A DNA stretch of 64,000 nucleotides from Gemella morbillorum (GTDB taxonomy: Bacteria > Bacillota > Bacilli > Staphylococcales > Gemellaceae), in contig NZ_LS483440.1 in the NCBI RefSeq assembly GCF_900476045.1, positions 1,054,001 to 1,118,000 of the forward strand. The letters are read 5' to 3'. Shown piece after piece: positions 18,371 to 60,681 of this stretch. The position numbers were made by a program, and so were the translations under genes. Each line of letters starts with the position of its first letter. Position 1 is the stretch's first letter. The notes below the pieces were generated by a model. That model had not been told where the DNA came from. It searched no databases and worked only from the letters and a program-made list of their open reading frames with translations.

Positions 18371-18493
18371 AATAAAGTCTCTTTATAGTTAAATTTGCTA
18401 TCTAACTATAAAGAGACGAATTTTCGCGGTGCCACTCTTTTTGATATTCTTATACCTAGATTTTATCTCTATACCATAAAGTTACAGCTAAAT
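18371..18493 (-). promoter_or_regulatory. Second, partial T-box module (stem III, antiterminator and terminator, no stem I)
   Basis: The T-box sequence AGTGGCACCGCG lies in 18425-18439 (minus strand). A terminator with perfect 15-bp arms (18377-18391 and 18403-18417) and a U-rich tail follows. A small hairpin, GGTAT-AAGA-ATATC, stands just before the T-box and matches stem III. Only about 58 bases separate it from the terminator of the first T-box, too few for stem I; no AGTA or GATGGTG elements are present. The UGGC bulge would pair with a GCCA tRNA end, as in the first module. Confidence 0.85.
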
Positions 18494-18740
18494 AAAAAAG
18501 TCTTTTTACAATTCCTAATAGAACTGTAAAAAGACGAAATACAAATCCGCGTTGCCACTTTTCTTGGTATAAGCATACCCACTCGAACTCCTTAAGGCAG
18601 AGTAACCAATTATTTTCATAATTAACTAAAAAGTGCGTTCATTAAGAAATTAATTACCAACCTCTCACCATCGTTAGCTCGCTAAAAATTTTTTTCAAAA
18701 TTACTATTCTTTTCTAAAGTTTTATTTTTATTGATACTTA
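18494..18740 (-). promoter_or_regulatory. T-box riboswitch, probably arginine-specific
   Basis: A complete T-box leader on the minus strand. Stem I carries the AGTA S-turn element, the distal GATGGTGAGAGG element and, on its 3' side, GAA-CGC-A before the closing helix. With the usual GAA/specifier/purine layout the specifier is CGC (Arg; 18635-18637). Reading one base later gives GCA (Ala), but the antiterminator bulge UGGC calls for a discriminator G, whereas tRNA-Ala normally has A. Stem III (GGTAT-GCTT-ATACC), T-box AGTGGCAACGCGG (18547-18560) and a terminator with 11-bp arms (18500-18510, 18525-18535) follow. It controls the downstream ABC transporter operon. Confidence 0.9.
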
Positions 18741-57994: not shown

Positions 57995-59392
57995 CTACTT
58001 TTTATTTTCAAATTTATCAAATTCTTCTTTATTAAATAATTTAAGATGTTTATCAACCATAATAGAATTCGTCATCCCACCACTTACATTTAAACAAGTA
58101 CGTCCCATATCTAAAATTGGATCTATTGCTAAAATTGGATTAATTTGATTAAAGAACGCTCCAAATCCAACTCCATTAACTGAAACTGATGCAGCCGTAA
58201 TTGCTGTCCCTGGCACACCTGCTATTCCTACTGAACCAAGAGTCACAACTATAATTGACATAACAAATAATGTAGCATCAATAGCTATACCATTAGCATT
58301 TGCTAAAAATACTATTAGCATTGCTGGATAAATACCAGCACACCCTTGCATTCCTGCTGTAGAAGAAAATGAAGCTACAAAGCTTGCAGTCGATTGATTG
58401 ACACCTAACTCTTTTGTAAGAGTATTGATAGTTAGGGGTAATGTACCTGCACTTGAACGTGACGTAAACGCTAGTATTAATGCTTTACTTGCTTTCCTAA
58501 AGTATGTAATTGGAGATAATCCATGAAATACTAAAAATAATCCTTGAATTATAAATTGAACAATTACTGCTAAATAAAGTAGTATAATAAACAGTAATAC
58601 ATCTTTAATAGATTTTAGTCCACGTTGAGCAATTGTATTTGCCAATAATGGAATTACAGCATATGGTAATAGCTTTATGACCATAACTGTAATACGGGAC
58701 ACTATAGCATGAAGACTTGCTATGTATCCAACAAAAGATTTAACTTTATCTTTATCTTTATTTTGAATATACCTTGCAGCTATTCCTATAAACATAGCGA
58801 AAATGACAATACCAATAACATTAAAATCAACCATAGCCTTAATAGGATTTGACGGGATTAATTCACGTAAGATAGTTACTACATCTTTTACTTCTTTTAT
58901 TTTACTTTCACCGCTACCTAATATTATAGAACTGCTTCCTAATTTAAATGCTGTTCCTACTAAAAAACCAACTGTTGAACTTATTGCTACCATCCCTAGA
59001 GTAATTATTAATGTAAAACGTGTTAATTTTTTTATATCTGTATTAGCATTTATATTAACAATAACATTAATAATTGACACTAAAACCAATGGAATAATTA
59101 ACATTTTAATTAAATCAATAAATCCATTTCCGAATAGCGAATACCATTTTGTAATTTCTACAACATATTTTATTTTCGTTGGATCATCACTAAATCCAGA
59201 ATATGCTTGAATTACAATTCCAAGTACTAATCCTATAGCAGTTGCTAATAACGTTCTTTTTGCCGAACTAACACGTCTTTTAGATAGATAATACATTAAA
59301 TAAAATAACGTAAAAAGCAATACTAAGAATAATAATGTCTCCTTTGTAGAAATCATAATAAATTTTTCAAAAAATGTAAACTTATTTCCCAT
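57995..59392 (-). CDS. tcyP: L-cystine:cation symporter TcyP (DAACS family)
   Basis: Sodium/proton-dicarboxylate-type symporter of about 465 residues with eight helices and two re-entrant loops. Similarity is strongest to TcyP of Bacillus: the N-terminal YLSKRRVSSAKRTLLATAIGLVLGIV, the hairpin SRSSAGTLPLTINTL and the VGIAGVPGTAITAASVSVNG stretch (cited in part: GIAGVPGTA). ATG at 59392 has GAGGT 8 bases upstream. A Cys-rich 17-codon leader ORF lies 70 bases ahead, which independently supports a cysteine/cystine role. Confidence 0.9.
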   Translation of the reverse strand: MGNKFTFFEKFIMISTKETLLFLVLLFTLFYLMYYLSKRRVSSAKRTLLATAIGLVLGIVIQAYSGFSDDPTKIKYVVEITKWYSLFGNGFIDLIKMLIIPLVLVSIINVIVNINANTDIKKLTRFTLIITLGMVAISSTVGFLVGTAFKLGSSSIILGSGESKIKEVKDVVTILRELIPSNPIKAMVDFNVIGIVIFAMFIGIAARYIQNKDKDKVKSFVGYIASLHAIVSRITVMVIKLLPYAVIPLLANTIAQRGLKSIKDVLLFIILLYLAVIVQFIIQGLFLVFHGLSPITYFRKASKALILAFTSRSSAGTLPLTINTLTKELGVNQSTASFVASFSSTAGMQGCAGIYPAMLIVFLANANGIAIDATLFVMSIIVVTLGSVGIAGVPGTAITAASVSVNGVGFGAFFNQINPILAIDPILDMGRTCLNVSGGMTNSIMVDKHLKLFNKEEFDKFENKK

Positions 59393-59409
59393 TCTATTGT
59401 ACCTCATAA

Positions 59410-59430
59410 TGAATTAGATTTCCTAATTCA
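59410..59430 (-). promoter_or_regulatory. Hairpin next to the tcyP ribosome site
   Basis: Perfect 8-bp arms (TGAATTAG and CTAATTCA, 59410-59417 and 59423-59430), ending 3 bases before the tcyP ribosome site (59401-59407). It may expose or bury the site depending on the upstream leader structure. Confidence 0.6.
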
Positions 59431-59443
59431 CCTTTCTATAATT

Positions 59444-59478
59444 TTGTTGTGTAATTTATTAATTAATTCTCACAACAA
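59444..59478 (-). promoter_or_regulatory. Hairpin covering the Cys codons of the tcyP leader ORF
   Basis: Arms TTGTTGTG (59471-59478, holding Cys codons 14 and 15) and CACAACAA (59444-59451) pair over 8 bp with a 19-base loop that holds the leader stop codon. A ribosome paused at the Cys codons would open it. Confidence 0.65.
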
Positions 59479-59516
59479 CTACAGATAGAGTGGAAACGAA
59501 TAAATTCATTTTCCAT
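59463..59516 (-). CDS. Cysteine-rich leader peptide of tcyP
   Basis: A 17-codon open frame, ATG to TAA, encoding MENEFIRFHSICSCCEN. The Shine-Dalgarno sequence GGAGG stands 6 bases before the ATG, as strong as any in the window. Three of the last six residues are Cys (codons TGT at 59481-59483, 59475-59477, 59472-59474). It ends about 70 bases before tcyP, a cystine transporter gene, and the Cys codons lie in a hairpin. By analogy to amino-acid leader peptides, its translation probably senses charged tRNA-Cys and sets tcyP expression. It is too short to be a conventional protein. Confidence 0.75.
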   Translation of the reverse strand: MENEFIRFHSICSCCEN

Positions 59517-59545
59517 AGTATACCTCCATAAATAAAAGATGTATA

Positions 59546-59576
59546 ATATTAAACCACTAATAAAATAACTTTTCAA
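59546..59576 (-). promoter_or_regulatory. Promoter of the leader-tcyP transcript
   Basis: TTGAAA (59571-59576) on the minus strand with TTTAAT at 17 bases (59548-59553) or TAATAT at 19 bases (59546-59551). It would give a short 5' end ahead of the leader ORF. Confidence 0.5.
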
Positions 59577-59643: not shown

Positions 59644-59689
59644 ACTAATTAGTTGATAATAAATTTTAATTAGAATCGGAGTGATATTG

Positions 59690-60136
59690 GTGAACATAAA
59701 ATTAGTATATGCTAGCTTAACTGGTAATACAGAAATGTTATCAGACTTAATAATAGAAAAATTTGAAGCAGAAAAAGGTATAGAAATTGAAAAATTATTC
59801 ATCGAAGATATGGTAGATTTTGATTTTTTAGATGATGCTGATGCATTTATCGTTGCTACCTATACTTATGGTGAGGGTGAACTCCCAGAAGAAATGGAAG
59901 AATTTTTTGAAGCACTTAGCGAAAAAGATTTTAGTGGCAAAATTTACGGTGTTATCGGTACTGGGGATACTGTATACGAACAATATTGTGTTTGTGTAGA
60001 TCAATTCAACGAGCAAATTGCTCAGACTGGTGCTACTAACCCTACTCAAAACTTAAAAATTGAAATAGAAGCCGATACTGATGAAGATTTTGAAAACATC
60101 GATAAATTTATAGAAGACTTTTCTTCTGCACTATAA
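59690..60136 (+). CDS. Flavodoxin
   Basis: Small FMN electron carrier of about 148 residues. The FMN phosphate loop reads YASLTGNTE, then TYTYGEGELPEE contacts the isoalloxazine ring, and GTGDTVYEQYCVCVDQF follows. The protein is strongly acidic, as usual. GTG at 59690 is chosen because GGAGTG lies 8 bases ahead; codons GTG at 59681 and TTG at 59687 are alternatives. It is one of the few plus-strand genes and shares its promoter region with tcyP. Its redox partner is not in the window. Confidence 0.92.
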   Translation: MNIKLVYASLTGNTEMLSDLIIEKFEAEKGIEIEKLFIEDMVDFDFLDDADAFIVATYTYGEGELPEEMEEFFEALSEKDFSGKIYGVIGTGDTVYEQYCVCVDQFNEQIAQTGATNPTQNLKIEIEADTDEDFENIDKFIEDFSSAL

Positions 60137-60139
60137 ATT

Positions 60140-60186
60140 AAAGGATAAAAAAAGAATGGTATAATACCATTCTTTTTTTATCCTTT
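60140..60186. terminator. Bidirectional terminator between flavodoxin and Rrf2 genes
   Basis: Perfect 22-bp arms (60140-60161 and 60165-60186) around a 3-base loop, with tracts of A and T inside the stem; it serves both convergent genes and includes the Rrf2 stop codon. Confidence 0.9.
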
Positions 60187-60681
60187 AAAGAAGACATTAA
60201 CTCTTTCAAACTCTTCTTCCCAATTATTCCAATCTAGACGGATTCTTGAATTTTCATCTAAAATATCTTCCACTAAATTATCTATTGTAATTTCTTCTAA
60301 TGATTTTTTTATTGATTGATTAATTGAATTAACTTTATTAAGATATTTTTTATACCTCTTATCAACAGCTAATGCACCTTCAAATATTTTAGAAACATAG
60401 TCAGTTTTTAAAACAAAAATTTCTACTTCACCATTCAGTGCCACATAAATATCATATAAAGTAACTTTTTTGTTAGCTTTATATTTATATCCTCCTCCTA
60501 CACCTGTATTGGCTTTTACTAAATCATGAAGAACTAACTTTCTCATGATTTTTTTTAAATATGTAGGAGATATATTAAGGCGTTGGCTAATTTCTTTTGA
60601 ATTAAGAAATACATGTCTATCTTGAAGATACAACATTACCATAATACAAATCGCTTGTTCAGTACTTTTTGTTAAATGCAT
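60178..60681 (-). CDS. Rrf2-family transcriptional regulator
   Basis: 167 residues. The N-terminal winged helix is typical: TEQAICIMVMLYLQ, KEISQRLNISPTYLKKIMRKL, then the wing with GVGGGYKY. The dimerisation helix follows. Its only Cys is near residue 12, so the three-Cys Fe-S site of IscR/NsrR is absent; in this it resembles CymR, the cysteine-metabolism repressor. Its proximity to tcyP is suggestive but not proof. A perfect inverted repeat (60758-60770) lies at its own promoter. Confidence 0.88.
   Translation of the reverse strand: MHLTKSTEQAICIMVMLYLQDRHVFLNSKEISQRLNISPTYLKKIMRKLVLHDLVKANTGVGGGYKYKANKKVTLYDIYVALNGEVEIFVLKTDYVSKIFEGALAVDKRYKKYLNKVNSINQSIKKSLEEITIDNLVEDILDENSRIRLDWNNWEEEFERVNVFFKG

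Follow-up and report, generated by a model that had tools for sequence, protein, structure and literature searches.

How is the import of cystine controlled in Gemella, whose species are common commensals of the human mouth and occasionally cause disease? The question is raised by one locus in a 64,000-nucleotide stretch of Gemella morbillorum DNA (the window; the genome carrying it is 1.76 Mb), where a short ORF with three Cys codons precedes tcyP, a gene for a putative cystine transporter. The original prediction, made from this stretch, was of a cysteine-sensing attenuator in which ribosomes pausing at clustered Cys codons change the folding of the RNA downstream. The 17-codon ORF, its ribosome site and the gap of 70 nt between its end and the tcyP ATG are all found on the minus strand as described. 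The features of the locus are collected in Table 1.

Table 1. Features of the leader and tcyP start in the window, in the order in which they would be transcribed.
Feature	Position	Strand	Basis
Probable promoter of the leader-tcyP transcript, TTGAAA-17 nt-TTTAAT	59548-59576	(-)	consensus match only
Ribosome-binding site of the leader ORF, TGGAGG	59523-59528	(-)	sequence; GGAGG invariant in 8/8
Leader ORF, 17 codons, MENEFIRFHSICSCCEN	59463-59516	(-)	sequence and 8/8 tcyP loci, aligned without gaps as far as codon 12
P1 5' strand TTTCCACTCTAT, codons 7-11, anti-RBS/anti-start	59485-59496	(-)	complementary to 59386-59397
Invariant Cys12 codon TGT inside TATCTGTA, proposed stall site	59481-59483	(-)	8/8 loci
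Extra Cys14 and Cys15 codons, not conserved	59472-59477	(-)	sequence
Hairpin 1, 8-bp stem TTGTTGTG (59478-59471) / CACAACAA (59451-59444), overlapping the leader ORF end	59444-59478	(-)	sequence
Hairpin 2, TGAATTAG-GAAAT-CTAATTCA, 8-bp stem, no U-tract	59410-59430	(-)	sequence, double changes
tcyP translation start region: RBS GAGG 59405-59402, AUG 59392-59390, P1 3' strand ATAGAATGGGAAA	59385-59406	(-)	sequence
tcyP, SDF-family L-cystine symporter, 465 aa	57995-59392	(-)	homology

The tcyP gene and its conserved leader

Compared with four E. coli paralogues of the SDF type, the product of the gene scores best against TcyP (32% identity, 217 bits; GltP, DctA and SstT reach 104, 89 and 65 bits), so that homology gives good grounds for calling it a cystine importer. 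Its start is placed at ATG 59392 (MGNKF...) rather than at an in-frame ATG at 59407, because only the former is common to relatives. Nearby, a flavodoxin gene (59681-60136, plus strand) runs divergently from the leader, and there is a gene for an Rrf2-family regulator (60178-60681, minus strand). The latter is only distantly CymR/IscR-like and could provide a second, transcriptional input.

In a sample of nine Gemella genomes, among them records of G. cuniculi, G. bergeri and G. haemolysans, tcyP is present in eight (protein identity 84-100%). Each of these loci has a leader ORF with GGAGG and ATG in the same place, preceded by a promoter-like TTG[A/C]AA-17-TTTAAT whose 17-nt spacer is also kept in 8/8. 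The remaining genome (G008) is without tcyP and without the leader element, and retains cysK-cysE. The encoded peptides are MENEFIRFHSICSCCEN in the window and MENEITRFHFICTYCKN, MEKASILFHSICS, MEKGLILFHFICSRSKI, MEKGHYLFHSICRWSKI (two genomes), MKNGFTRSHRICRCCKIQ and MENGFTRSHHICRCL elsewhere. Their alignment has zero gaps from the ATG to codon 12 and many gaps outside this segment; His9, Ile11 and Cys12 are invariant, and an 8-nt block, TATCTGTA, that covers Ile11-Cys12 and neighbouring bases is identical at all eight loci. In tcyP itself, only 12 of 160 fourfold-degenerate sites (7.5%) are invariant among the same genomes, which suggests that silent sites are near saturation across the genus. 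Many short ORFs and weak hairpins are expected in low-GC DNA, and the region might thus be a chance ORF followed by chance hairpins, with no regulatory leader. Conservation at 8/8 loci against near-saturated silent sites, together with the pair-keeping double changes described below, makes this scarcely credible. Judged from its conservation, the leader ORF is genuine.

The end of the peptide is a different matter. Stops and frames differ after codon 13 and the tails vary (ICS, ICRWSKI, ICRCL, ICTYCKN), with a frame shift in G007, which rules out a conserved CxCC tail. Half of the eight peptides contain a single Cys codon, the other four species have further Cys codons at positions 14 and/or 15, and an adjacent Cys-Cys pair occurs in only two peptides. 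The original prediction named alignment with relatives as one of its tests and expected both a conserved short ORF and a CxCC end; the ORF survived this comparison and the CxCC end was not kept. Its argument that the Cys cluster exceeds chance agrees with the composition of the window, in which Cys makes up 0.66% of long-ORF residues and three Cys occur in two of the ten SD-preceded short ORFs (8-45 codons), but relatives keep only Cys12 of the CSCC cluster, and conservation of the ORF is the stronger evidence.

A predicted helix between the leader and the tcyP start

Codons 7-11 of the leader are complementary to the ribosome site and AUG of tcyP, so that a long-range helix, P1, can form. In the window it would join 59496-59485 with 59397-59386 through 11 pairs (one of them G.U), interrupted once by a C.A mismatch where the A of the AUG stands. 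The two strands covary, as CCC/GGG and UCC/GGA. In G. cuniculi the helix is uninterrupted, with TTTCCATTTTATC opposite GATAAAATGGGAAA; in the haemolysans group TTTTCCATT lies opposite AATGGAAAA, with TATC facing GATA, and in G. bergeri TTCCCAT lies opposite ATGGGAA. One pair of alignment columns (37:145) is UA in four sequences and UG and CG in two each. Across the eight species, 92% of cells in the P1 core are paired. When P1 is taken together with the two hairpins, 87.5% of the cells in the alignment are paired, compared with at most 53% in slid registers, and eight cells are changed on both sides, against a shuffle mean of 2.9 and with none of 500 shuffles as high.

P1 is predicted to enclose both hairpins and can mask the tcyP start. 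Codons 14 and 15 do fall in the 8-bp hairpin 1, as originally described, and an equivalent of this hairpin was found in relatives. Hairpin 2 also lies where it was expected, directly 5' of the ribosome site in all species and with changes on both sides in three of six scored pairs. It does not quite abut the tcyP ribosome site in the window, ending 3 nt ahead of it, and it is not a terminator, being followed by TTATGAGG rather than a U-tract. No terminator-like site was found between the leader ORF and tcyP, and a post-hairpin U-tract is absent from all eight loci. Terminator-based attenuation was rejected on this ground. Transcription attenuation, the usual interpretation of a Cys leader, in which pausing at Cys codons alters the formation of a terminator, would give a role to the Cys codons held in hairpin 1 of the window copy, but in view of the missing terminator and the TTATGAGG after hairpin 2 we regard it as very improbable. 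Since there is no intrinsic terminator, control would act on translation.

Codon choice in the leader is restricted. The His codon is always CAY and faces the tcyP AUG, Ile11 is always ATC and faces GAT, and codon 8 is always TTC or TCC. Of the Ile codons in these tcyP genes 62 of 453 are ATC, and of the Phe codons 44 of 249 are TTC; the choice made in the leader argues for a constraint on its codons at the level of RNA. With CAY set against AUG and the rare ATC against GAT, the invariant peptide motif is largely an RNA motif.

An RNA-level constraint of this kind is also what would be seen if leader and gene were coupled by translation without any sensing of an amino acid. Passing ribosomes would open P1, the Cys codon would be a by-product of the pairing strand, and output would be constant or would depend on growth rate. 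The clear constraint on ATC, TTC and the CAY opposite AUG fits such coupling, as do the presence of one Cys codon only in half of the species and the invariance of His9 and Ile11 to the same degree as Cys12. Set against it, the P1 core of most species does not include the GUA of TATCTGTA, which is nevertheless kept in 8/8, additional Cys codons stand at 14 and/or 15 in four species, and the target is a cystine importer that is under T-box control in a sister lineage (see below). We therefore consider coupling without sensing unlikely.

The eight species have leader-to-start duplexes with energies between -15.6 and -11.6 kcal/mol, and P1 pairing appears in most of their MFE folds. Cognate duplexes reach -14.4 kcal/mol and non-cognate ones -12.8 kcal/mol, a weak contrast that is not decisive. 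RNAalifold prefers an alternative in which the anti-start strand is paired with the start region of the leader itself. The start regions of leader and tcyP are alike (GGAGGTA...AUGGAAAA and GGAGGATA...AUGGAAAA), so that the anti-start strand can mask either.

Folding with ribosome footprints

The RNAs were folded with ribosome footprints in two arrangements, with a ribosome on the leader start, or with Cys12 in the A site and the leader start also occupied. In the first arrangement P1 is favoured and the calculated cost of opening the tcyP start is 6.8-10.6 kcal/mol, compared with 2.5-6.9 kcal/mol in the second; the ribosome at Cys12 lowers the opening energy by 2-8 kcal/mol in 8/8 species. 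Stalls anywhere from codon 8 to about codon 14 give much the same opening, so the identity of the slow codon would set the signal. When codons 7-12 were shuffled, the observed effect was larger than in 98-100% of shuffles for two of the eight species and than in about 89-94% for three, and was unremarkable in the other three, namely the window copy (L001), L004 and L005. Part of the effect is reproduced by shuffles, since a strand rich in pyrimidines will pair with purine-rich start sites in any case. The thermodynamic argument for a switch is supportive rather than proof, and the comparative argument is the stronger of the two.

A model for control by the supply of Cys-tRNA

These observations are best accommodated, with a probability that we put at roughly 0.6, by a cis-acting translational attenuator of tcyP that follows the logic of ermC and has the supply of Cys-tRNA as its probable signal. 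When Cys-tRNA is plentiful, ribosomes would reach the stop codon of the leader and P1 would re-form, aided by ribosomes that occupy the competing leader start region, and tcyP would stay closed. When Cys-tRNA is scarce, a ribosome would wait with codon 12 (or 14/15 in the window copy) in the A site and cover about codons 6-15, and with them the 5' strand of P1. The tcyP start would thereby be freed and the importer made. The original proposal of a cysteine-sensing attenuator is thus upheld in part: a leader ORF with a conserved Cys codon and a ribosome-dependent RNA switch are supported by conservation at 8/8 loci, but the switching element is P1 and not only the hairpin with Cys14 and Cys15, and cysteine is a signal that we infer.

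If the element is a switch that senses ribosomes, cysteine is a likely signal. The Cys codon just 3' of P1 is invariant, extra Cys codons occur in four of eight species, the gene imports cystine, no CymR scores above cut-off, and the sister lineage has a T-box. Conservation alone cannot single out Cys, since His9 and Ile11 are equally invariant, and the first U of UGU may be kept partly for pairing. Stalling might also be caused by the nascent chain or by a drug: the leader would then be an arrest peptide that, on meeting a small molecule or inhibitor, halts its ribosome on top of the P1 strand. The geometry would be that of erm leaders, in which the ribosome stalls near codon 11-12 with the anti-start strand beneath it. 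We think this quite improbable, however, as residues ahead of the proposed stall site vary widely (MENEFIRFHS, MEKASILFHS, MKNGFTRSHR), the invariant residues coincide with the codons that pair in the RNA, and the target is an amino-acid importer rather than a resistance gene.

A more elaborate version of control by Cys-tRNA can be offered as speculation. One anti-start strand would pair with either the leader start or the tcyP start, loading of ribosomes on the leader would drive it to tcyP, and one hungry Cys codon would remove it; in Gemella this arrangement would have replaced CymR or T-box control. If true, it would be an amino-acid sensor that has one codon and works without a terminator.

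Distribution and other control of cysteine genes

Within the genus, a covariance model of the element finds the eight tcyP leaders (E 1e-17 to 1e-25) and nothing else, the next best match having an E of 0.2. Candidate second copies, all with E of 0.2 or more, were dismissed as chance-level matches; several lie over the starts of ordinary genes, one of which we take by eye to encode an ATP-synthase-type subunit. Among 399 genomes of other Bacilli, none has the element at E 0.01 with this model, which finds weak matches less sensitively. No family of Rfam release 15 reaches its gathering score at the tcyP leader, the best matches being at chance level and far below gathering, and a T-box or other known RNA at the window tcyP was rejected for want of a match to the T-box covariance model or Rfam. 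Just upstream of cysK-cysE, present in 9/9 genomes, there is neither a short Cys-rich leader ORF nor a T-box, and there is thus no regulon-wide Cys leader. No CymR-like regulator scores above the curated cut-off in the nine Gemella genomes.

No Cys leader was seen at distant relatives of tcyP in Peptostreptococcus and Lachnospiraceae. Conserved leaders stand upstream of tcyP in Peptostreptococcus and Mediterraneibacter/Lachnoclostridium (L022, L023, at about 1860-2000, and L024-L026); those of L022 and L026 have no Rfam match at E 0.5, and these leaders are possible undescribed regulatory RNAs.

In a sister lineage, Gemella sp. S13M (L015), the tcyP gene (69% identity) has a T-box upstream (101.7 bits) whose specifier region reads GAAAGUGCG. 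Neighbouring T-boxes (Met AUG-G; probable Arg CGU-G and CGC-A) served to calibrate the reading, by which the specifier is probably UGC-G, for Cys; strict-offset alignment to the Met paralogue gives GUG. The base after a T-box specifier should be a purine, which pairs with U33. UGC is preferred over GUG because of this rule and because it is the usual specifier of Cys T-boxes (PMC2940859). Control of tcyP by tRNA charging would thus recur by way of another device. Closely similar T-boxes stand before S13M tcyP and the next gene (1140-1380 and 3072-3340 of L015), and the first of them seems to have changed its specifier from Met (AUG) to Cys (UGC). The second of these genes presumably encodes an FNT-type formate/nitrite/hydrosulfide channel.

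Other T-boxes were noted in passing. The window has one at 18400-18726 on the minus strand (99.4 bits), followed in tandem by a second T-box-like sequence and a terminator; its specifier looks like CGC (Arg), and the gene after it is, by eye, one for the binding protein of an amino-acid ABC transporter. An apparent Met (AUG) specifier is seen in the T-boxes of L033 and L043, which stand ahead of what we take to be a cyclase/kynurenine-formamidase-like gene; methionine control of such a target is unexpected.

Comparison with known systems

In Firmicutes, CymR, CysR and Cys T-boxes are described as the main regulators of cysteine genes (PMC2940859). If the model holds, Gemella has replaced such control at tcyP with a minimal translational leader-peptide switch, and orthologous tcyP genes provide a clear comparison, set up by nature, of unrelated RNA devices, two in number, that probably read the same signal. 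The Gemella element would also be a very small and easily testable sensor. We found no description of a Cys leader for tcyP or for Gemella in open-licence papers, in agreement with the original view that none was known for this transporter in this group; the genus-wide element is real and apparently undescribed, and the type of switch is already known.

Cys-specific T-boxes, such as those of C. perfringens cysK, cysP1 and cysP2 (PMC2940859), share the presumed signal, tRNA-Cys charging, and the class of target, but they bind tRNA directly, use a terminator and have no leader ORF. The Rhodobacterales cysS motif uORFC-8-2 is a uORF with Cys codons and an intrinsic terminator (PMC8632094). The likeness lies in Cys codons at 14-15 within a stem, the difference in the terminator, which makes it a case of transcription attenuation, and in the regulation of cysS. 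Staphylococcus belongs to the same order as Gemella. Its S. aureus ilv-leu leader peptide (PMC5794164) is also an attenuation device, but one that has Leu/Ile codons, depends on a terminator and serves a biosynthetic operon.

Mycobacteria and other Actinobacteria have known or predicted Cys leader ORFs (PMC1262725; Canestrari et al. 2020, cited in PMC9031893), and the polycysteine leaderless sORFs of mycobacteria are reported to make downstream genes responsive to cysteine (Canestrari et al. 2020, cited in PMC9031893). The polycysteine sORFs resemble the tcyP leader in placing Cys codons in a short upstream ORF; they are leaderless and have contiguous runs of Cys, whereas the tcyP leader is SD-led, has one invariant Cys and is predicted to pair with the downstream start. 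Closer in its pairing is the LEU element of actinobacterial leuA, where the coding strand of the leader is proposed to pair with the leuA SD (PMC1262725). The tcyP leader would pair in a like manner, but the LEU element has a run of Leu in a pseudoknot, a biosynthetic operon as target and a place in another phylum, and the paired strand of the tcyP leader ends just before a single Cys codon.

The translational attenuators of ermC and cat likewise have a short SD-led ORF, a masking strand in or next to it, no terminator, and control over translation of the next gene. There the signal is a drug, whereas the tcyP leader is proposed to answer to a shortage of Cys-tRNA and serves an amino-acid importer. 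Its masking strand lies inside the ORF and would pair directly with the downstream ribosome site and AUG.
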